Assembly: GCA_009379925.1 (NCBI GenBank)
Contig: WHSU01000001.1
Span: 1 to 64,000, forward strand
DNA from: Dehalococcoidia bacterium
GTDB lineage: Bacteria > Chloroflexota > Dehalococcoidia > UBA2979
Length of the DNA: 64,000 bases
Reading direction: 5' to 3'
This document shows positions 30,383-41,261 of this stretch, piece by piece. Both the position numbers and the translations under genes were made by a program. Under the pieces are notes generated by a model. It had not been told where the DNA came from. It made no database searches and saw only the letters and a list, made by a program, of their open reading frames with translations. Position 1 is the first letter of the stretch; the number at the start of each line of letters is the position of its first letter.

Positions 30383-31423
30383 CTAGACCAGCGCGGGGCT
30401 GGTCTCCGCGAATGGCCGGCCGACGGCCACGGCCAGCGCGCGCGCCTCGTCCGCCAGTTCCGCGAAGTTCGCGGGCGTGAGCGATTGGGCGCCGTCCGAG
30501 AGCGCGTGGTCCGGGTTCGGGTGCACCTCGATCATCAGCCCGTCCGCGCCCACGGCGATCGACGCCATCGACATCGGCCGCACCAGGTACCACTTGCCGG
30601 TGCCGTGAGAGGGGTCAGAGATGACCGGCAGGTGGCTGAGCCGCTTCACCAGCGCGATCGCGTTGAGGTCCAGGGTGTTCCGCGTCGCGGTCTCGAAGGT
30701 ACGGATGCCCCGCTCGCACAGGATCACGTTCGGGTTGTCCTGGCTCAGGATGTACTCGGCTGCCAGCAGCCACTCCTCGATCGTGCCGGCCAGGCCACGC
30801 TTGAGCATGACGGTCTTGCCGGTCTTGCCGGCTTCCTCCAGCAGCACGAAGTTCTGCATGTTGCGCGCGCCGATCTGCAGGACGTCCGAGTACTGCGCGA
30901 CCGCGTCTACGTCACGGACGGAGAGCAGCTCCGTGATCACGGGCATACCCATCTCGGCGCCCGCGGCGGACAGCATCTTGAGCGCGGGGACGCCGAGACC
31001 CTGGAAGGAGTAGGGGGACGACCGAGGCTTGAACGCGCCGCCTCGGAGCAGGTGCGCGCCGGCGGCGCGCACGCCCTTCGCTGCCGCCCATAGCTGCTCC
31101 TCAGACTCGATGGAGCACGGGCCGGCCATGAACACGGGCCGCCCGCCGCCGACTCTGACGCCGTTACTGAGTTCGATCACCGAGTCGTCCGGATGCACCT
31201 CGCGGCTCGACAGCTTGTACGGCTTGGATACGCGCAGCACCTCGTCGACGCCATCGATGGTGGCTAGTTCGTCGCGGTACTCGGGGAGGACCTGGCCCAG
31301 GACCGCGATCACGCTGCGCGACTCGCCGTGGATGGTCTGCGGCTTCAACCCCAGTTCCTGCACGCGCGCGATCACCGCGTCGCTCTGCTCCTGCGTGTGG
31401 TCCATCTTCATGATCACAATCAT
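30383..31423 (-). CDS. aroF: 3-deoxy-7-phosphoheptulonate synthase (DAHP synthase, AroF type)
   Basis: A 346-residue DAHP synthase joining PEP and erythrose-4-phosphate, the first shikimate step. An N-terminal ferredoxin-like (ACT-like) domain of about 70 residues (MIVIMKMDHTQEQSDAVIARV) is followed by the TIM barrel with GRPVFMAGPCSIES and LLRGGAFKPRSSPYSFQGLG. SDPSHGTGKWYLV and DGLMIEVHPNPDHALSDG hold metal-binding residues. This is the type I-beta form, whose N-terminal domain is used for feedback control. Its ATG (31423) overlaps the aroH stop as ATGA. Confidence 0.95.
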   Translation of the reverse strand: MIVIMKMDHTQEQSDAVIARVQELGLKPQTIHGESRSVIAVLGQVLPEYRDELATIDGVDEVLRVSKPYKLSSREVHPDDSVIELSNGVRVGGGRPVFMAGPCSIESEEQLWAAAKGVRAAGAHLLRGGAFKPRSSPYSFQGLGVPALKMLSAAGAEMGMPVITELLSVRDVDAVAQYSDVLQIGARNMQNFVLLEEAGKTGKTVMLKRGLAGTIEEWLLAAEYILSQDNPNVILCERGIRTFETATRNTLDLNAIALVKRLSHLPVISDPSHGTGKWYLVRPMSMASIAVGADGLMIEVHPNPDHALSDGAQSLTPANFAELADEARALAVAVGRPFAETSPALV

Positions 31424-31806
31424 GTCTGTGACTCCGTCGGCTGGTCTTCGACAAGGTCGCGCCGCAGCTGGCGCGCCCCGTGAAGATACACGTGCTTGAT
31501 GTCCGCGGCGGCCCGCTCCGTGTTGACATGCATCAGGATGCGCAGGCAGCGGGCCAGGCTCCCCGGCACGTTCATCTCATGCACGCACGAGAGCGCCACG
31601 TCCGTCCACCCATCCTCGCGGGCGGCCACGGCCGGGAACTCCGCGTTCAGATCAGGGGTCGTCGAGAAAATGATGGAGGCCACGTGGTCATGCTGGATGT
31701 CATTACCCCGCACGATCGCGTCCAGCAGCTCATGCGTGGCTGCCAGGATGTCATCGCGGGTGTTGGCGCGGACGGTGGTCGCGCCCCTGATTCCACGGAC
31801 CAACAT
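31420..31806 (-). CDS. aroH: Chorismate mutase, AroH type
   Basis: A 128-residue trimeric-type chorismate mutase converting chorismate to prephenate. LVRGIRGATTVRANTRDDILAATHELLDAI matches the AroH fold, with the Arg in RGIRGAT as an active-site residue, and SIIFSTTPDLNAEFPA, followed by MNVPGSLARCLRILMHVNT, matches the rest. ATG 31806 is chosen because the family begins there; the open frame to 31902 is not needed. It overlaps aroF by ATGA. It directs chorismate away from Trp and towards Phe/Tyr, yet lies in the same transcription unit as trp genes. Confidence 0.92.
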   Translation of the reverse strand: MLVRGIRGATTVRANTRDDILAATHELLDAIVRGNDIQHDHVASIIFSTTPDLNAEFPAVAAREDGWTDVALSCVHEMNVPGSLARCLRILMHVNTERAAADIKHVYLHGARQLRRDLVEDQPTESQT

Positions 31807-31974
31807 GTCCTGGAGGCTCCGTTTCGACTCGAGACCCCGGCCCCCTGCCTGAACGTCAACGGCGGGACCGGCGCGGTGGTGTATGGGCGACCTACGAGCC
31901 AAACGACCCGGCCGCGGCGCGGCCGGTCAGCGCCGTCTGGCTCCGCGTATAGCACGCGGCAACCCTGAGGTAGC

Positions 31975-31997: not shown

Positions 31998-32816
31998 TCA
32001 GTCGACAGCGGGGACCGGACCAGGCTCACGACCGGTGATCTCCTCCATGAATGCCCGGATGCGCTCGGGGCGCTGCTCCGGACTGGACTCGCTTATGGTA
32101 CGGACGAATGCGCTTCCGATCACGGCCCCCTCCGCCAGGGCGCCCACCGCCTCGACATGCGCCCGTTCGCGGATGCCGAACCCGACGGCCAGCGGCAGGT
32201 CCGTGAGCGCCCGCACGCGCGCCAGGAACGGCCCCAGGTCCTCCGCCACCGACTGCCGCTCGCCGGTCACACCGGTCACGCTCACGCAGTAAAGGAAGCC
32301 GCTGCCGTGCTCGGCCGCCAGCCGGATGCGCTCGTCCGTCGAGGTTGGCGCCAGCAGGTAGACCATGTGCAACCCGGCCGCCCGCGCCGGCGCCTCCAGC
32401 TCGGTCGCCTCGTGCGGCGGTACGTCGACGATGATCAGCCCGTCGATGCCTGCCTCCGCCGCGTCGTGCGCGAAGCGGTCCAGGCCGTAGGACAGCAGCG
32501 GGTTGATGTACCCCATGACGAGCAGCGGGACCTCGATGCCCGCATCGCGGATGCGGCGCGCCGTCTCGATGACCGTCGCGGTGGTCGTGCCGGCGGCGAT
32601 TGCCTGCTGGTAGGCGAGCTGGTTCACCGGCCCGTCGGCCAGGGGGTCGCTGAACGGCAACCCGAGTTCGAAGGCGTCCGCACCGCCCTCGACAGCCGCG
32701 CGCACGACCTCGACGGTGGCGTCCGGCTCCGGCCAGCCGCTGGGCGCGAAGGGGATCACCGCGGGGCGGCCCTCGGCGCGGGTGCGCTCGAACATCGCGG
32801 CGATGCGGTCGGTCAT
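31998..32816 (-). CDS. trpA: Tryptophan synthase alpha subunit
   Basis: A 272-residue TIM barrel that cleaves indole-3-glycerol phosphate. FELGLPFSDPLADGPVNQLA carries the catalytic Glu and Asp region, and GLIIVDVPPHEATEL and VSVTGVTGERQSV are typical. The phosphate site is AVGFGIRERAHVEAV...GAVIGSAFV. ATG 32816 overlaps the CPBP protease stop as ATGA. It acts as an alpha-beta-beta-alpha complex with trpB, from which it is separated by the protease gene, an unusual arrangement. Confidence 0.95.
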   Translation of the reverse strand: MTDRIAAMFERTRAEGRPAVIPFAPSGWPEPDATVEVVRAAVEGGADAFELGLPFSDPLADGPVNQLAYQQAIAAGTTTATVIETARRIRDAGIEVPLLVMGYINPLLSYGLDRFAHDAAEAGIDGLIIVDVPPHEATELEAPARAAGLHMVYLLAPTSTDERIRLAAEHGSGFLYCVSVTGVTGERQSVAEDLGPFLARVRALTDLPLAVGFGIRERAHVEAVGALAEGAVIGSAFVRTISESSPEQRPERIRAFMEEITGREPGPVPAVD

Positions 32817-33577
32817 GCGGTCGTTTGGGTCACAGTGAGCACGAAACTGATCCCGTTCACGATGGCGTGCGCGCCGATGCTCGTCCAGATCGACCCGCTG
32901 GCGCGGTAGGCCCAGGCGAAGAGCATGCCCACGACCGTGAAGGGGATGATGACGCTCACGTTGATGTGAAACAAGGAGAACGCCAGACCGCTGAGGAAGA
33001 GCGCGACCCACGCCGGCCACATCGTCAGCATCGCCCGGAAAACGAAGCTGCGGAAGAACAGCTCCTCCGCGAAGGGCGCCACCAGGACGACCGCCACCCC
33101 CAGCAGTACGTAGACCGCCGTCTCCTCGCTCCGGTCCACGGGGATGGTGTTGCCCTCGTCCAGCACGCCGATGTCGACGCCGGCGGATTCGAGGAGTCCG
33201 AGCGCCAGCGCGTAGAAGCCAAGTGCGACGTACGTGCCGATCACCGCGACGACCATCGGTCCCCACCGCCGAGGGCGCACGAACCCCAGGTCGCGCAGCG
33301 ACATCCCCCGCCGGAGCGCCAGCAGGAGGACGGTGGCCGCGAGCACCAGTTCGAAGGCGACCGTGAACGAGACCCCCTCGACGACGAAGTCCTCAGGCCG
33401 AAACTCACCTTCCGGCGGTTCAACGAGCAGGGCGACGGCGACGGAGATTCCGACCAGGCCGAGCAGGAGCACGCCGAAGCCGAAGAGCAGGTCGCGGCCT
33501 CGCCACGTCGGGCGGCGCTCCGGCTCGGGCGGCGCGACCGGCGGCTCCGTCACCCATCGGGGTGGCTCAGCAAACAC
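32813..33577 (-). CDS. CPBP family intramembrane metalloprotease (between trpB and trpA)
   Basis: A 254-residue integral membrane protein with about seven or eight hydrophobic segments. Motif 1 is FAEELFFRSFVFR (EExxxR) and a later motif is FSLFHINVSVIIPF, matching the CAAX-type/bacteriocin-processing CPBP protease family, zinc-dependent enzymes of the cytoplasmic membrane. GTG start at 33577, 57 bases after trpB; its stop is coupled to trpA by ATGA. Its substrate is unknown, and a role in Trp synthesis is not expected from the family. Confidence 0.88.
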   Translation of the reverse strand: MFAEPPRWVTEPPVAPPEPERRPTWRGRDLLFGFGVLLLGLVGISVAVALLVEPPEGEFRPEDFVVEGVSFTVAFELVLAATVLLLALRRGMSLRDLGFVRPRRWGPMVVAVIGTYVALGFYALALGLLESAGVDIGVLDEGNTIPVDRSEETAVYVLLGVAVVLVAPFAEELFFRSFVFRAMLTMWPAWVALFLSGLAFSLFHINVSVIIPFTVVGMLFAWAYRASGSIWTSIGAHAIVNGISFVLTVTQTTA

Positions 33578-33634: not shown

Positions 33635-34849
33635 TCACACGTCTACCCCGAGCGTCTCGGCGACGGTGTTCATGTCCTTGTCGCCGCGGCCGCTCAGGTT
33701 CACCAGCACGATGTCTTCCGGCCCCAGTTCGCCACGCAGGTGCTCCAGGTACGCGATGGCGTGCGAGGACTCCAGCGCCGGGATGATCCCTTCGAGACGA
33801 GAGAGCCGCTGTAGCGCCTCCAACGCCTCGCCATCGGTGACGGCCGCGTACTCGGCGAGTTCGCTCACCTTCAGCCACGCGTGCTCCGGACCGACGCCCG
33901 GGTAGTCGAGACCGGCCGAGATCGAGTGGGCCTCCAGCACCTGGCCCCACTGGTCCTGCAGCAGGTAGGAGCGCGCGCCGTGCAGCACGCCGGGGCGGCC
34001 GCGGTTCAGCGTAGCGGCGTGCTTCCCCTCCAGGCCCTCGCCCGCCGCCTCCACGCCGATCAGCCGCACCAGGTCATCGAGCAGTGGCGCGAAGAGGCCC
34101 ATGGCGTTCGACCCGCCTCCGACGCAGGCGACGGCTACCGTGGGCAGCCGGCCCTCCTTCTCCAACAGCTGCGCGCGCGCCTCCTGGCCGATGATCGCCT
34201 GGAAGTCACGCACCATTGCCGGGTACGGGTGCGGCCCAACGACGCTGCCGATGATGTAGTACGTGTCACGGACGTTGGTGACCCAGTCCCGGATCGCCTC
34301 GTTGGTCGCGTCCTTGAGGGTGCGCGAGCCCGCTTCGACGGTGCGCACCTCGGCGCCGAGCACCTTCATCTTGAACACGTTGAGCGCCTGCCGCCGCACG
34401 TCCTCGGCGCCCATGTAGACGATGCAGTCGAGGCCGAAGAGTGCGCAGACGGTGGCCGTCGCCACGCCGTGCTGCCCCGCGCCAGTCTCGGCAATGATGC
34501 GGCGCTTGCCCATCCGGCGCGCCAGCAGCCCCTGCGCCAGCACCGCGTTGATCTTGTGCGCGCCGGTGTGGTTCAGGTCCTCCCGTTTCAGGTAGACCTT
34601 CGCGCCCACGTGCTCCGAGAGCCTCGATGCAAACGTGAGCGGCGACGGCCGCCCGACGTAGTCACGCAGCAGCCCGTCCAGCTCCGCGTGGAACGCCGGG
34701 TCCCCCAGGGCCTCGTGGTACGCCGTCTCCAGTTCGGCGAGCGCCGGCATCAGCGTCTCCGGGACGTACTGCCCTCCGAAGATGCCGAAGTGTCCCCGGG
34801 CGTCCGGCTGGCGCTCGGACGGTGCCTCGCCGCGTGGGCTCGAGGTCAT
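33635..34849 (-). CDS. trpB: Tryptophan synthase beta subunit
   Basis: A 404-residue PLP enzyme that joins indole and serine. [17 protein letters not shown] opens it, the PLP Lys lies in [16 protein letters not shown], and [19 protein letters not shown] and [16 protein letters not shown] are typical, so it is the TrpB1 type that works with trpA. ATG 34849 overlaps the trpF stop (ATGA); the longer open frame to 35647 is a shadow of trpF. It ends 57 bases before the CPBP protease gene. Confidence 0.96.
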
Positions 34850-35595
34850 GAGAGCTCCTCGTCGACACGACGGACGGCGTCCACGAACTCGCGCACCCGC
34901 TGGTGGTCCTTGCGCCCGTCGGTCTCGGTGCCAGTCGACACATCGACGCACCAGGGGCGCACGCGCTGGATCGCCTCGCCCACGTTCTCGGGCGTCAAGC
35001 CGCCCGCGAGGATGACGGGCACCTGCTCGGAGACCCGCCGGGCGACCTCCCAGTCGAAGGGGTGTCCACCACCCCCCCGATACGGGCCGTGCGCCGCGTC
35101 GAGCATGAGGGCGAGCGCGAAACCAGGCTGCACGTCCTCCATCGGGTCGGACGGGGAGTCGATCGGCGAGACGTGGACCACCTGGATCACCTGCTTCGTC
35201 ACCAGCAGGCAGTCCTCCCACGTCTCGTCGCCGGACAGCTGTACGAGGTCGACCTCCGCCTGCTCGGCCAGCTCGTTCACCTCGTCGATCGGCTGGTCGG
35301 CGAAGATGCCGACGGTCAGCGGCCGCTTGGCGCGCAGGTACGCCTCCAGCACCTCCGACCCGTGCTGGAACCAGGGCGTGATCTCCTCGCGCACGTGCGG
35401 CTGCGCCGGCGGCGGGAGCACCATCTCGTGCCGCGCGAGCGGCGCGCCGAGGGCACGCGTCATCGCGTTCGCCTCCTCGGCGTCGACGCGACGCTTGGAC
35501 TCGGCGAACATGATCCCGACGAAGTCCGCACCCGCCTCGGCGGCCGCCAGGACATCTTCGGGTGTGCGGTTCCCGCAGATCTTGATGAAGGTCAC
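34846..35595 (-). CDS. trpF: Phosphoribosylanthranilate isomerase
   Basis: A 249-residue TIM barrel, longer than the usual 200-220. The catalytic Cys is in [13 protein letters not shown], the catalytic Asp in LMLDAAHG, and the phosphate site in [16 protein letters not shown] followed by [15 protein letters not shown]. The usual QLHG motif reads QLSGDE. The extra length is in the loop [23 protein letters not shown] 35595 overlaps the trpC stop (GTGA). It follows trpC and precedes trpB in canonical order. Confidence 0.93.
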
Positions 35596-36500
35596 TCGAC
35601 CCGCTCCCCCCGGCTACCTCTCCCCACTCCGGAGACAGGGTGAGCAAGCCGTTCAGGCTCCGCGCGCATCAGTTCCAGCGCCTTCGCGCGGGCGTCGCCG
35701 CTCTTCACCAGCGCCTCGCCGACGAGCAGCGCGTGCGCGCCCGCCTCGACCATGCGCGCGGCATCGAGGGGTCTGCGGATCGCGGACTCCGCGACCAGCG
35801 TCACCTCCGGCGGCAGCAGCGGCGCGAGCCGCTCCGTGGTGCCGAGGTCCTCGCCGAAGGTGCGCAGGTCGCGGTTGTTCACCCCGACGACGCGCGCGCC
35901 AGCCGCGAGGGCCGTAGTCACCTCGGGCTGGTCGTGCACCTCGACCAGCGGCTCCATGCCGTAGGAGCGGGTGAGCGCCAGCAGGTCTGCGAGCGCCGAG
36001 GGCTCCAGCAGCGCCACGATCAGCAGCAACGAGTCGGCGCCCGCGGCCCGCGCCTCCAGCACCTGGTAGGGGTCGAAGATGAAGTCCTTGCGCAGCAGGG
36101 CGGGCGCGTCCGGGCCGCGCGCGAAGGCTTCGCCCATGCGTACCAGGTCCTCGATGCTGCCTCGGAAGTGGTCCGGCTCAGTGAGCACCGAGACGGCGGC
36201 CACGCCGGCGTCCGCGTACTGTCGCGCCTGCGCGAGGGCGTCGAGGTCGGCGTCGAAGACGCCTTTGCTGGGGGAGGCCCGCTTCACCTCGCCGATCAGC
36301 CGCACCCGCGCCTCGGACGGCGTGGCGGCACGGCCGTGTCGCAGCAGCGCCGCGAAGTCACGCGGCCGCGCGTCGAGGGCATCGATGCGCCGCGCCAGGT
36401 CCGCCTCGGCGATGAGCCGGCGGTCCTCGGCGAGGCGCTCACGCCGCGTCGCGACGATGCGGTCCAACACCGTGCCGGTCAGCCGCGCGCCGTCGGTCAT
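35592..36500 (-). CDS. trpC: Indole-3-glycerol phosphate synthase
   Basis: A 302-residue TIM barrel. [20 protein letters not shown] carries the active-site Lys and Glu region, [31 protein letters not shown] is diagnostic, and the glycine phosphate-binding loop is [37 protein letters not shown] 36500, 2 bases after the trpD stop. The N-terminal 50 residues contain the usual [11 protein letters not shown] helix. The enzyme cyclises CDRP to indole-glycerol phosphate. The last 15 residues are basic and overlap the next start. Confidence 0.95.
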
Positions 36501-36502
36501 CG

Positions 36503-37561
36503 CTATTCCACCGTCGCCCGGCGCGTCGCCTCGACGAACGCGCCGACGCGCGCGGCGGCGTCGCCGCTGTCGATCGCCTTGAGCGCCATCTCCACCCCCG
36601 ACCGCAGGTTCGAGGCGAGTCCGGTGACGTAGAGCCCGGCGCCCGCCGTCGCGGCGACCAGCTCCCGTACGGCGTGCGGGCCTTCGCCGCGGAAGATGTC
36701 GCGCATGATCTGCGCGTTCTCCTGCGGCGAGCCGCCCACGATGTCCTCGAACCTGTGGACGGAGAGCCCGAGGTCGAAGGGCGTGACGGTGCGCTGCGTG
36801 ACGGTGCTGCCCTTCACCTCGAAGACAGTTGACGGGCCGGTGACCGTGAGGTCGTCCAGGCCGTCTTCGCCGGCCACGACCAGCGCGTGGCGCATACCGA
36901 GGCGGGCCAGCACCTGCGCGTTGCGCTCGGCCACCTGGGCGTTCGGCGCGCCCATGACGTGGCAGCTCGCGCCCGCCGGGTTCGTGAGCGGGCCGAGGAT
37001 GTTGAAGACCGTACGGATGCCGAGCTGCGGACGCAGCGGTCCCGCGAACTTCATGGCCGGGTGGAAGGCCGGCGCGAACATGAAGCCCACGCCGGTCTGC
37101 TCGATGCTCTGCACCACCTGCTTTGGCGTGAGCATGATGTTCGCGCCCAGCGCCTCCAGCAGGTCCGCCGCGCCCGACTTCGAGGTCATCGCGCGGTTGC
37201 CGTGCTTCGCGACCTTCGCCCCGGCGGCCGCGGCCACGAAGGCGGCGGCGGTGGAGGCGTTGAACACCTTTCTCGAGGAACCACCCGTGCCACAGGTGTC
37301 GAGCAACGGCTTCAGGGAGGTGTCGACGTGCAGCGCGTGCTCGCGCATGGCCTTCGCCATGCCGGTCAACTCGTCGACGCTCTCGCCCTTCATGCGCAGC
37401 GCCGTCACGATGGCGCCGAACTGCGCCGGGCTCGCGACCTGGTCGTCCGGCCAGTCGCCGATGCCCGCATGCATGATCGCGTGCATCACCTCGGCGGCCT
37501 CGAACTCGGTGAGGTCTCGGCCCTCGTCGACGATGGCGGCGAGGGCGTCCCTGACAGTCAT
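36503..37561 (-). CDS. trpD: Anthranilate phosphoribosyltransferase
   Basis: A 352-residue enzyme that joins anthranilate and PRPP. LDTCGTGGSSRKVFNASTAAAFVAAAAG is the PRPP-binding signature, KHGNRAMTSKSGAADLLEALG the anthranilate-binding region, and FGIRT-type LGIRTVFNILGPLTNPA the conserved centre. ATG 37561 overlaps the trpG stop (ATGA). Stand-alone form, not fused to trpG. Confidence 0.96.
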   Translation of the reverse strand: MTVRDALAAIVDEGRDLTEFEAAEVMHAIMHAGIGDWPDDQVASPAQFGAIVTALRMKGESVDELTGMAKAMREHALHVDTSLKPLLDTCGTGGSSRKVFNASTAAAFVAAAAGAKVAKHGNRAMTSKSGAADLLEALGANIMLTPKQVVQSIEQTGVGFMFAPAFHPAMKFAGPLRPQLGIRTVFNILGPLTNPAGASCHVMGAPNAQVAERNAQVLARLGMRHALVVAGEDGLDDLTVTGPSTVFEVKGSTVTQRTVTPFDLGLSVHRFEDIVGGSPQENAQIMRDIFRGEGPHAVRELVAATAGAGLYVTGLASNLRSGVEMALKAIDSGDAAARVGAFVEATRRATVE

Positions 37562-38151
37562 CGCGCGGCCTCCGCGGGCACCGGCTGCTCCATGCGCAGG
37601 AAGTTGCGCAGCAGGTCGTGCCCGACCTTCGTCATGATCGACTCCGGGTGGAACTGCACGCCCTCGATTGCGAGCGAACGGTGACGCACTCCCATGATCA
37701 CCCCGCTGTCCGATCGCGCGGTCACCTCAAGGTCCGCGGGCACCGTCTCCGGCGCGATCGCGAGCGAATGATAGCGAATCGCCTCGAAGGGGTTGGGCAG
37801 ACCGTCGAAGACGCCCTTCCCGTCGTGTTCCACCATCGAGGTCTTGCCGTGCATGATCTCGCCGGCGTACCCCACGGTGCCCCCGTACGCCTCGCCGATG
37901 CACTGGTGTCCGAGGCAGACGCCGAGCAGTGGCGCACGCCCCTCGAAGGCGTGTACGAGGTCCCCGGAGATCCCCGCCTCCTTCGGCGAGCATGGACCGG
38001 GCGAGATCACGACGCGCTCCGGGCGCATCGCCAGGCAGTCCTCCACGGTCACCTCATCGTTGCGGTGGACCTCGACCTCCGCTCCGAGTTCCGAGAGGTA
38101 CTGGTAGAGGTTGAACGTGAACGAGTCGTAGTTGTCGATCAGTAGCAGCAT
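37558..38151 (-). CDS. trpG: Anthranilate synthase glutaminase subunit
   Basis: A 197-residue class I glutamine amidotransferase that supplies ammonia to TrpE. LLLIDNYDSFTFNLYQYL opens it, the nucleophile Cys is in LLGVCLGHQCIGEAYGG, and the His-Glu pair is in IEGVQFHPESIMTK. ATG 38151 begins the family sequence; the frame open to 38547 includes no further recognised domain. Unusually, a Nudix/DinB gene and a dispersed repeat separate it from trpE. Confidence 0.95.
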   Translation of the reverse strand: MLLLIDNYDSFTFNLYQYLSELGAEVEVHRNDEVTVEDCLAMRPERVVISPGPCSPKEAGISGDLVHAFEGRAPLLGVCLGHQCIGEAYGGTVGYAGEIMHGKTSMVEHDGKGVFDGLPNPFEAIRYHSLAIAPETVPADLEVTARSDSGVIMGVRHRSLAIEGVQFHPESIMTKVGHDLLRNFLRMEQPVPAEAAR

Positions 38152-38264: not shown

Positions 38265-39200
38265 TCAGGCCCCTCCTTCGGGGGCAGGGGCGTCCGAGGC
38301 GGAGGCGACGCGTCCCGCGGTCGCCATCACGCGCAGTTGGTCCGCGTGCTCGTCGTAGTGACGCGCAACCTTCTCGATGCGCTCCCCAACCATCACCGCG
38401 CCGCGCTCCGCGTGGTTGCCGTAGCGCGCGAGTTCCTCTGGCGTCAGCGTCTCGAGCCACGCCTCGGTCTGCTCGCGTACCCCCTCGAGGCGCGCGCGCA
38501 GCACCGCCTCTTCCTCGGGCTCGCGCAGCCGGTAGGCCAGCTCCCACTGGTACTCGCTGAACGGCCGCCAGGTGTGGCCAGCCTCCTCCAGGAGCACGCG
38601 CGCCTCGGCGGCGTAGTACGCCTCCACATCAGCCACGTGCGCGAGCGCGTCGATGGGCGACCAGCCCTCCAGCAGCGGCTCGCCGCGCTGCGGCAGCGGC
38701 ACGGCCTCGAATGCCGCCAGCAGGCCGTTGCGAGCCTCCGCGACCAGGTGCTGCAACGACGCCGCGGAGTAGCCGTCGAGCGCCTCGCTGCCGAAGGAGC
38801 GCGCGAGCCAGTCGGCGAGCCCGCTGGCGAGGTCGACATCACCCGGAGCGGTGGCGTTCACCCAGGCCGCATCGTCGTAGTGCTTCGCGCTGAATCGCGG
38901 CTCGCCGCCCCAGCCCACACAGGTGAAGGCGTTGACGATGAAGCGACTGCCCTCGACGCCTTCGAGGTAGAGCGTGTCCTGGAACTCGAACGGGCCGGGC
39001 TGCACGCCCAGTTGATCGCGCAGCACGCGCTGCAGCGCGTCCTCGGCGGCCTCGTGCCCGGCGACGGGCGCCAGCGGTAGCGACCAGCGCCCGGCAAAGG
39101 GGTCCCGGCCGGTGCGGTGCCGCACCAGCAGGATGCGATCGTCGTCGCGCACGAGCAGGCCCGCGGAGGCGAGGATCGGCGGTGGCGGCGGTGCGGTCAT
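38265..39200 (-). CDS. Nudix-like domain fused to DinB-like domain
   Basis: A 311-residue two-domain protein. Residues about 5-130 resemble a Nudix hydrolase (SAGLLVRDDDRILLVRHRTG..GRWSLPLAPVAGHEAAEDALQRVL). The catalytic REUxEE core is missing, with RVLRDQ there instead, so hydrolase activity is doubtful. Residues about 140-290 resemble a DinB four-helix metal-binding domain, with His residues in DALAHVADVEAYY and ARHYDEHADQL that could form the metal triad. Strong AAGGAGG precedes ATG 39200, 21 bases after trpE. No function is assigned; a small-molecule repair or thiol-linked role is only a guess. Confidence 0.75.
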   Translation of the reverse strand: MTAPPPPPILASAGLLVRDDDRILLVRHRTGRDPFAGRWSLPLAPVAGHEAAEDALQRVLRDQLGVQPGPFEFQDTLYLEGVEGSRFIVNAFTCVGWGGEPRFSAKHYDDAAWVNATAPGDVDLASGLADWLARSFGSEALDGYSAASLQHLVAEARNGLLAAFEAVPLPQRGEPLLEGWSPIDALAHVADVEAYYAAEARVLLEEAGHTWRPFSEYQWELAYRLREPEEEAVLRARLEGVREQTEAWLETLTPEELARYGNHAERGAVMVGERIEKVARHYDEHADQLRVMATAGRVASASDAPAPEGGA

Positions 39201-39221: not shown

Positions 39222-40706
39222 TCAGTACCCGAGGCTGCCGGACGGCGCGCCGCCCTCACCGTGCTCGGCGTCGTCGATGGCCGCGAGCAAGGCGCGCGCC
39301 TTGTGCTCGCACTCCTCGAACTCCCGAACCGGGTCGGAGTCGTAGACGATGCCCGCACCCGCCTGGATATGCGCCCAGCCGTCCTTCATCACCAGCGTGC
39401 GGATGGTGATACACGTCTCCAGGTTCCCGGAGAAGTCGAAGAAGCCCACCGCACCCGCGTACGGTCCTCGGCGGTCGGGTTCCAACTCCGCGATGATCTC
39501 CATCGCGCGGATTTTCGGCGCCCCGGACACCGTGCCCTCTGGGTAGGCGGACCGCAGCGCCTCGTAGGGCGACATCCCCTCGCGCAGTTGCCCGGTGACG
39601 TGGCTGACGAGGTGCATGACGTGCGAGTAGTACTCCACCTGCTGCTGTGCGGTGACGCGCACGCTGCCGGTCTCCGCCACCCGGCCGATGTCGTTGCGCC
39701 CGAGGTCGAGTAGCATCACATGCTCCGCGATCTCCTTCGGGTCGTTGCGCAGCTCCTCGGCCAGCCGCTCGTCCTCCAGCGGCGTCTCGCCGCGCCTGCG
39801 CGTGCCCGCAATCGGATGCACCTCGACGAGCCCGTCCTCGACGTTCACCAGCAACTCCGGCGACGCGCCGACGATGTAGGTGTCGTCGAACTGCAGGTAG
39901 TACATGTACGGCGACGGGTTGATGGTGCGCAGGCTGCGGTAGACCTCGAACGGATGCGCGCCCGTCTCTCGCGAGAACCGCTGCGAGAGCACCGCCTGGA
40001 TGATGTCGCCCGCGACGATGTACTCCTTGGTGCGCTCGACCGCGCGCAAGAAGTCCTCGCGCTTCCAGTTCGACTCCACGCCGCGGCCGGACTTGCCGGA
40101 GAACGGCACGTACGGCAGCGCGCCCAGCGGGGTCTCCAACCGCTCCACGAGCTGGTCGATCTTCCACCGCGCCTGCTGGTAGGACGCCTCCACGTCGCCA
40201 TCGAGGCGGACGTGGGAGACGACCTTGATCGTGTGCATCAGGTGGTCGAACACCAGCAGCGTGTCCGTAAACATCAGCCACGTCTCCGGCACGCCGAGCA
40301 CGTCCACCCCGGTGACGGGCACCCGCGGCTCGAAGTGCGCGACCGCTTCGTAGCCGACGTAGCCGACGGCGCCGCCACGGAAGCGCGGCAGCCCCTCGAT
40401 GTCGACGGCGTCGAAGCGGCCCAGCTCGCGCTCCACCTCGCGGAGCGGGTCGCCGTCCTCGTGCTCGGCCGCCAGCACACGGTACGGCTCCGTGCCGATG
40501 AAGGAGTAGCGGCCCATGCGCTCGCCGCCCTCCACGGACTCCAACAGGTACGAATAGGGACCTCGCGCGACCTTCAGGAACGCGGATACGGGGGTCTCGA
40601 GGTCGGCGCGCACCTCTCGATAGATCGGGACGATGTTGCCCCGGCCTTGCATGCGCCGGACCTCGTGCAGGGGCGGTTCGTACATGTGATCAGTCATGCG
40701 TGGCAT
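39222..40706 (-). CDS. trpE: Anthranilate synthase component I
   Basis: A 494-residue chorismate-utilising enzyme. The N-terminal part includes YSYLLESVEGGERMGRYSFIG, the usual site for Trp feedback inhibition (an LLES motif). The catalytic part has VLSQRFSRETGAHPFEVYRSLRTINPSPYMYYL, PIAGTRRRGET and GTVSGAPKIRAMEII. ATG 40706 has AAGGA upstream; an in-frame ATG at 40697 is possible. It is the first gene after the T-box leader and converts chorismate and glutamine with trpG. Confidence 0.95.
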   Translation of the reverse strand: MPRMTDHMYEPPLHEVRRMQGRGNIVPIYREVRADLETPVSAFLKVARGPYSYLLESVEGGERMGRYSFIGTEPYRVLAAEHEDGDPLREVERELGRFDAVDIEGLPRFRGGAVGYVGYEAVAHFEPRVPVTGVDVLGVPETWLMFTDTLLVFDHLMHTIKVVSHVRLDGDVEASYQQARWKIDQLVERLETPLGALPYVPFSGKSGRGVESNWKREDFLRAVERTKEYIVAGDIIQAVLSQRFSRETGAHPFEVYRSLRTINPSPYMYYLQFDDTYIVGASPELLVNVEDGLVEVHPIAGTRRRGETPLEDERLAEELRNDPKEIAEHVMLLDLGRNDIGRVAETGSVRVTAQQQVEYYSHVMHLVSHVTGQLREGMSPYEALRSAYPEGTVSGAPKIRAMEIIAELEPDRRGPYAGAVGFFDFSGNLETCITIRTLVMKDGWAHIQAGAGIVYDSDPVREFEECEHKARALLAAIDDAEHGEGGAPSGSLGY

Positions 40707-40883
40707 CAGTCGAGTCCTTGAGAGCAGCGGGCCGCGGTGACGAGCGAAGCGCGCCCCACCACCAGCTCCCCCGCCCGTCGCTGGCCCCGCGGTCCGCGCG
40801 CGCGTTGAAGCCGGTCATGCTCGCTCTCCGTCCTCGCTCAGGTGCTTTCACTGCCTGCCTTGCCTCGATCTATCGTCACACAC

Positions 40884-40916
40884 AAAAGGACCACCGCCAC
40901 GTGGGGCGATGGTCCT
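40884..40916 (-). terminator. T-box attenuator terminator hairpin
   Basis: On the minus strand, AGGACCATCGCC (40916-40905) pairs with GGCGGTGGTCCT (40898-40887), a 12-pair stem with one G-U wobble and a 6-base loop. TTTT follows at 40887-40884. The antiterminator element directly precedes it (ends at 40917). This is the regulated terminator of the T-box, upstream of trpE by about 180 bases. Confidence 0.92.
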
Positions 40917-41226
40917 CGCGGTGCCACCCACATTCCGCGCCGTCGACCGGCCCCGAGGGGCGGCGCAGCGCGCTCGTTCGGGACACAGCCACAGCATCGC
41001 TGCGCACGTCGAGGACGCGCATCGCGAGGGCGATGTCCTGGGCCTGGATAACGGCGCCCGCACCGTCGACGCCTACTGGCCACCCCGATGGCGGCGTTCG
41101 GGTCGAGACTCCCGGGTCCATTCGGCCGCTGCTGACAGGCGCCGGGCTTCCACCTTGCCCCGGCTCTCTGAGCCCCGCGTAGCGGCGTACTAGTCCCGAT
41201 CGACATCGCTTATGTATGCCAACTGG
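40884..41226 (-). promoter_or_regulatory. Trp-specific T-box riboswitch leader
   Basis: The minus-strand leader of trpE carries the T-box landmarks in order. The stem I base is GGGACT (41192-41197) pairing with AGTCTC (41105-41110), and an AGTA sits at 41188-41191. AGAGAG is at 41164-41169, and an apical GGTGGAAG is at 41147-41154 between CCGGG and CCCGG. In the specifier position GAA-TGG-ACC (TGG at 41118-41120) is a Trp codon. The conserved T-box antiterminator TGGCACCGCG is at 40917-40926. It ends in a terminator with a T-run. Uncharged tRNA-Trp should stabilise the antiterminator and turn on the trp genes. Confidence 0.92.
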
Positions 41227-41232
41227 GCATTG

Positions 41233-41261
41233 ACGTTACGCGCGCCCTCGAATCGTGTCAA
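41233..41261 (-). promoter_or_regulatory. Probable promoter of the trp superoperon
   Basis: On the minus strand, a perfect -35 TTGACA (41261-41256), a 17-base spacer, and a -10-like TAACGT (41238-41233). The predicted start near 41226 is just upstream of the first T-box stem at 41197. The region also overlaps the 5' end of the divergent GNAT gene (ATG 41292). Confidence 0.7.

Follow-up and report, generated by a model that had tools for sequence, protein, structure and literature searches.

The trp genes of the DNA analysed here, a stretch of 64,000 nucleotides from an uncultured Dehalococcoidia bacterium (the window), are preceded on the minus strand by a T-box leader, and the question that this locus raises is whether the T-box alone links the operon to the supply of Trp. 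A preliminary description of the sequence had placed a Trp-specific T-box directly before trpE and made it the regulator of the whole aromatic gene set. The T-box is indeed upstream of trpE and its role as a Trp regulator is supported, but this account is incomplete, since the T-box appears to be only the first of two Trp sensors. About 175 nt separate its terminator from the first trpE ATG, and they hold a second Trp-related feature, a 42-codon ORF opening at ATG 40818. Our main reading, with a probability of about 0.7, is that the trp operon leader would be a two-stage sensor of tRNA-Trp charging, acting first on transcription and then on translation. Sequence and comparison support both elements, their order, their Trp specificity and their conservation, and from the same data we infer that the leader ORF is translated and has a regulatory role, with the direction proposed below.

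Organization of the trp locus

The genome has 3.54 Mb and is 87% complete, and the window is its contig 44. The trpE gene is 73-82% identical to those of the nearest MAGs, and the same-family comparison set comprised 44 genomes. The following genes were located:

39222..40706, minus strand: trpE, anthranilate synthase component I (TIGR00564, 548 bits), with its start at 40706, 40697 or 40685
37558..38151, minus strand: trpG (TIGR00566), start estimated from the domain match
36503..37561, minus strand: trpD (TIGR01245)
35592..36500, minus strand: trpC (NF001377, above cut-off)
34846..35595, minus strand: trpF (PF00697)
33635..34798, minus strand: trpB (TIGR00263), start estimated
31998..32795, minus strand: trpA (TIGR00262), start estimated
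31420..31902, minus strand: chorismate mutase type I (PF07736)
30383..31423, minus strand: DAHP synthase (NF006421)

The minus-strand order is trpE, a DinB-like ORF, trpG, trpD, trpC, trpF, trpB, a CPBP-type protease gene, trpA, chorismate mutase and DAHP synthase, followed by scpA, a riboflavin kinase/FAD synthetase gene and a TyrS/TrpS-type tRNA synthetase gene. The DinB-like ORF (38265-39200, minus strand) and the protease gene (32813-33577, minus strand) are two insertions in the trp gene run. The name aromatic superoperon, used in the preliminary description, is fair for this set of genes, whose co-transcription we infer.

A T-box leader upstream of trpE

Read along the minus strand, the leader contains, in this order, a Stem I with AGTA, AGAGAG and the apical motif GGTGGAAG, the specifier region GAA-TGG-ACC, the antiterminator sequence TGGCACCGCG, and a terminator stem with its T run, all of them as listed in the preliminary description. 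Its features are:

40884..41212, minus strand: Trp T-box leader, whole element (RF00230 match, extended to 40884 by the 3' arm and T run of the terminator; conserved in 20 relatives)
41118..41120, minus strand: specifier codon UGG in GAA-UGG-ACC (Infernal alignment; 20/20 aligned relatives; also before trpS)
40923..40926, minus strand: T-box bulge UGGC, within TGGCACCGCG, complementary to the GCCA 3' end of tRNA-Trp
40901..40931, minus strand: antiterminator, outer helix GUGGG/CCCAC (98/99 cells paired in 20 sequences, with both-side changes)
40884..40917, minus strand: intrinsic terminator of 13 pairs, T run 40887-40884 (215/219 cells paired in 20 sequences)
41233..41261, minus strand: putative promoter, tentatively read from the sequence as TTGACA (41261-41256), a 17 nt spacer and TAACGT (41238-41233)

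A cmscan search with an E-value threshold matched RF00230 at 40899-41212 of the minus strand, over the complete model (1-219 of 219), with 52.1 bits and an E-value of 1.8e-10. The preliminary description had made its proposal depend on such a match, which exists, though under the curated cut-off: the gathering score of RF00230 is 93, and the default Rfam search, which uses it, reported nothing. The gathering score is set conservatively and does not describe a biological property; the T-boxes of other family members score 24-72 bits. The low score of the window element fits its GC-rich leader and a long insertion that precedes the antiterminator and spans ~65 nt of the alignment. That GC-rich T-boxes of this kind escape the Rfam cut-off is a warning for annotation. 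The matches to 6C, mir-9318 and a plant-virus pseudoknot in the region were weak (E 1.6 to 9.9) and on this ground were taken as chance.

The terminator, initially described as a 12-pair stem with a T run, has 13 pairs at 40917-40886 according to a terminator scan, in which it was the single site of the window against 0.2 expected in shuffles. The antiterminator and terminator helices have the strand GGACCAUCGCCCCAC in common and both are conserved, so that they form a mutually exclusive pair. Stem I carries a specifier loop, in which AGUA faces GAA, as well as a cognate codon at the specifier. By its sequence and predicted structure, the window element is a T-box and a member of RF00230, and it is predicted to sense and respond to uncharged tRNA-Trp. 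A promoter scan of the window gave no site at the scan thresholds, the -10 of the putative T-box promoter being too poor.

Conservation of the T-box and specificity for Trp

Conservation was assessed as counts of paired cells over the named helices in 20 related leaders, instead of by RNAalifold on the free alignment, which did not recover the canonical Stem I. The helices flanking the specifier loop were paired in 80/80 and 100/100 cells and the GGGC helix in 80/80, and several pairs of the named helices show changes on both sides. The strand GGGTGGC(A/G)CCGCGAGGACCATCGCCCC is nearly invariant across the same leaders. The Trp T-boxes of the family also have an extra conserved helix with both-side changes, located between the GACGGUG/CGCCGUU helix and the antiterminator (alignment columns 202-211 and 259-268).

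The specificity for Trp claimed in the preliminary description was borne out by Infernal, which aligns the specifier to TGG (41120-41118). If the codon were read one base further downstream, it would be GGA and the element would be a Gly T-box. Such a reading finds a precedent in another T-box of this genome, that of ileS, with one base between GAA and its codon (GAAG-ATC-AC), a spacing that would turn the window motif into GAAT-GGA-CC. However, Infernal puts UGG in the specifier, with the conserved A behind it and the one-base gap before it; GAATGGACC is invariant in 20/20 aligned related leaders, standing before trpE throughout and before trpS in two genomes (G002 and G026); and the UGGC bulge fits tRNA-Trp. 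A Gly specifier is, thus, extremely improbable. The genome's own tRNA-Trp has the anticodon CCA and an encoded GCCA 3' end that pairs with the UGGC bulge. Taken together, the placement of UGG by Infernal, the same motif before trpS and the UGGC/GCCA complementarity make the predicted Trp specificity secure.

The T-box before ileS, the second of the genome (L003 1501-1880; G000:C40, from 57162, plus strand) has the specifier ATC and the bulge UGGU, and no leader ORF was seen behind it. The 3' part of another T-box, with 22 bits, was detected before thrS (L002 / L160; G000:C39:18310-18345, minus strand); its Stem I was not found by the model and is divergent or degraded.

A Trp-codon leader ORF between the T-box and trpE

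The ORF that follows the terminator has these features:

40690..40818, minus strand: Trp leader ORF of 42 codons, MTGFNARADRGASDGRGSWWWGALRSSPRPAALKDSTDATHD (27 family members have a Trp-cluster ORF at this position)
40756..40764, minus strand: TGG-TGG-TGG, proposed stalling codons (P = 0.03 in this genome alone; ~5e-8 combined, 12 genera)

A SD, GGAG (40829-40826), can be read before its start, and its end at 40690 falls among the candidate trpE starts. The window has, therefore, a Trp T-box and then a short ORF with a SD and clustered Trp codons. This ORF is probably a second, ribosome-based Trp sensor.

It could be argued that only the T-box regulates and that the ORF is a chance product of a G-rich, high-GC sequence, with no leader peptide involved, and indeed the Trp run of the window alone reaches only P = 0.03 against dinucleotide shuffles. 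The family as a whole tells otherwise. Leader ORFs of 34-54 codons, carrying a cluster of at least 2 Trp codons in the range of codons 16-32, are found in the same place in 27 same-family genomes belonging to 12 genera (e.g., MSRHHRPSAQTRHGQWSWWWRGRVTHPTFVVLGA, VHRQYNASTRRDSTTGRAWWWRTTSHRLTAARSTGAAR and MIDVGLGQQMRATDLGVWRWRRCVPSAHLVRSSTGAAR). In 30 genomes of the family, the richest 9-codon window averages 2.73 Trp codons versus 1.29 in shuffles, with P<0.05 in 18/30; in other families of the class the corresponding values are 1.26 and 1.19, with P<0.05 in 1/76 genomes, that is, the shuffle test detected no Trp-codon excess before trpE in these 76 genomes. Using one genome per genus, the one with the lowest handle regardless of the outcome, the combined P over the 12 genera is ~5e-8, a value to be read with the fact that genera are not fully independent. 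The position of the T-box also counts against chance: the distance from its bulge to the start of the trpE match has a median of 230 nt in the family versus 72 nt in a set of 29 genomes from 20 other families, so that the family T-box lies ~160 nt further from trpE, just the room for the ORF. Finally, the ORFs have SDs and end at the trpE start. The leader stop overlaps this start as ATGA in 14 of the 27 members, while other leader ORFs share 8-11 nt with it or directly adjoin it, and those of genus g13 end 22-34 nt upstream. Mean SD pairing is -8.5 kcal/mol at leader starts, -7.0 at trpE starts and -4.1 in the background, although leader starts were chosen partly for their SD and these values are only supporting.

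Chance would also account for the members with just 1-2 Trp codons in the leader, for G060, which has none, and for the little conservation at the protein level. Changes are spread over the three codon positions (69/77/63) and affect 20 codons synonymously versus 117 non-synonymously, so that the codon-position test gave no sign of protein-level constraint outside the Trp codons, which were kept in 27/30 comparisons. This poor conservation weakens the coding argument; weak protein conservation outside the regulatory codons is, nevertheless, usual for leader peptides. On balance, we consider a chance ORF unlikely, and the existence of a functional Trp leader highly probable.

A simple motif scan of the trpE loci, other phyla included, did not reveal a T-box combined with a clear Trp-run leader outside the family. 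In three genomes of other families (G053, G054 and G158; L205, L199 and L207), a T-box motif is found at a distance of 197-277 nt before the trpE match, and no Trp cluster accompanies it.

Proposed mode of action

It is established for the T-box family that uncharged tRNA lets transcription pass the terminator. In the first stage proposed here, uncharged tRNA-Trp would pair with the UGG specifier and, via its GCCA end, with the UGGC bulge; the antiterminator would thereby be stabilised and RNA polymerase would pass the terminator at 40917-40884. In the second stage, the read-through mRNA would carry the leader ORF with its strong SD and its Trp codons. Among the members listed, the first Trp codon of the leader is 55-86 nt ahead of the trpE ATG. 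The final part of the leader ORF contains the trpE SD or adjoins it. With charged Trp-tRNA at hand, ribosomes would translate the leader to its stop and there mask both the SD and the start of trpE, resulting in poor trpE translation, and when charged Trp-tRNA is scarce they would stall at the Trp codons, leaving the trpE SD free and trpE translated. This steric occlusion, modelled on what has been proposed for rtpA, is the least certain step, and we hold it only slightly better than an even bet.

Occlusion is preferred over an RNA switch or classical attenuation because no terminator stands behind the leader and the predicted SD accessibility does not change on stalling. A switch exposing the trpE SD on stalling found no support: in models of 25 members the mean SD accessibility was 0.40 in the free state versus 0.37 in the stalled one. 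The tandem Trp codons of the short leader ORF, which are also a mark of the actinobacterial systems (PMC1262725), might suggest ribosome-mediated transcription attenuation of the kind known from enterobacterial and actinobacterial trp operons, or its Rho-dependent variant. Yet an intrinsic terminator was sought behind the leader and none was found: the longest T run of each member in the stretch from the Trp codons to trpE measures 1-3, the sole terminator found in the window is that of the T-box, and the leader lacks the U-run terminator that a classical Trp attenuator has between the leader codons and the first gene. We consider attenuation very unlikely.

The main rival to occlusion has the opposite sign. 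Ribosomes that finish the leader could restart at the overlapping ATG, in which case stalling would lower trpE translation in severe starvation and the leader would be a brake or a delay, not a second inducer. It is the main rival because ATGA overlaps, a common coupling arrangement present in the 14 members mentioned above, often mean re-initiation. Nevertheless, the trpE start has its own SD, above the background, and need not depend on re-initiation; the stop of the genus g13 leaders is separated from the trpE start by 22-34 nt; and a brake on Trp synthesis triggered by Trp starvation makes little physiological sense. We give re-initiation coupling a small chance, somewhat above that of a chance ORF.

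Comparison with known systems

The Trp T-box is the part already known, since T-boxes of trpE and trpB-like genes were reported in Dehalococcoides in 2008 (Wels et al., 2008, PMC2494555). The Dehalococcoides trpE element is of the same kind and precedes the same gene in the same class of bacteria. In the other families of this class that we compared, the T-box lies ~72 nt before trpE without a Trp-cluster leader ORF, whereas in the family of the window a leader ORF of 34-54 codons intervenes. This ORF between the terminator and trpE is the part that appears new in the papers searched.

The window leader is similar to that of rtpA (anti-TRAP) of B. subtilis, in which a Trp leader peptide comes after a T-box (Chen and Yanofsky, 2003, 2004, as cited by PMC11255114; also PMC4027176). 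In both cases a Trp T-box acting on transcription would be followed by a Trp-codon leader peptide acting on translation through ribosome stalling, and then by the controlled gene. However, rtpA encodes a regulator, and in the window the target is the biosynthetic operon itself, with trpE as first gene. The rtpLP leader, of ~10 codons, stops immediately ahead of the rtpA SD. The leaders of the window family have 34-54 codons and in most members their stop overlaps or abuts the trpE start instead of lying upstream of the SD. The phyla differ and the two leaders are apparently unrelated. Thus, the window leader may work like that of rtpA by analogy, yet it is not classed as a member of this leader type.

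The leader-peptide Trp attenuators found in Corynebacterium and Streptomyces, of the classical actinobacterial type (PMC1262725), resemble the window leader in that a short ORF ahead of trpE has two or three consecutive UGG codons. They lack a Trp T-box and their terminator follows the leader, whereas the terminator of the window is part of the T-box and comes before the leader. The trp operons of Bacillota may carry tandem T-boxes (PMC12452182), which also sense the same charging signal twice in one leader; there, both sensors are T-boxes acting on transcription, while in the window the second one would be a leader ORF acting probably on translation. According to a 2010 survey, its authors knew of no leader-peptide system demonstrated outside Proteobacteria and Actinobacteria before their own Firmicutes example (PMC2965389), and a 2025 survey of contiguous riboswitches, tandem trp T-boxes included, does not mention leader peptides (PMC12452182). 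The searchable literature describes a single gene, rtpA of B. subtilis, for which one uncharged tRNA is sensed in tandem, in transcription and in translation. If our reading is true, the biosynthetic operon of this Chloroflexota would be a second, apparently unrelated case, and a leader peptide layered on a T-box would be a recurrent solution.

Modularity, gain and loss of the T-box and the leader ORF

The two sensors do not always travel together. In G002 and G026, the T-box is placed before trpS and the Trp leader between trpS and trpE. G011 has the order T-box, trpS, trpE, with an ORF containing a single Trp. G060 keeps a five-residue leader remnant, MIEQP, ending in ATGA at trpE, and in G024 and the genera g5, g8 and g10 neither a T-box nor a Trp-cluster leader was found before trpE. 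With genomes that have both sensors, a leader split from its T-box by trpS, decayed leaders or neither element, gain and loss can be traced within the family. We consider it fairly likely, though a little less so than the two-stage reading, that one Dehalococcoidia family evolved, independently of Bacillus rtpA, a Trp-codon leader behind an older Trp T-box, so that its trp operon would be gated twice by tRNA-Trp charging, in transcription and in translation, by modular sensors of which the leader decays or disappears in some lineages.

Upstream of trpE in G013 (L146; C100), Stem I is missing and a TTGACA element and a terminator hairpin remain; in this single genome an ATG ORF with TGG-TGG stands just before the terminator. 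This element may be what is left of a T-box, or one converted into a classical Trp attenuator. GC-rich palindromic insertions of the CCCCTCCCC...GGGGAGGGG type are located between the T-box and the leader in G060 (L153) and G061 (L135).
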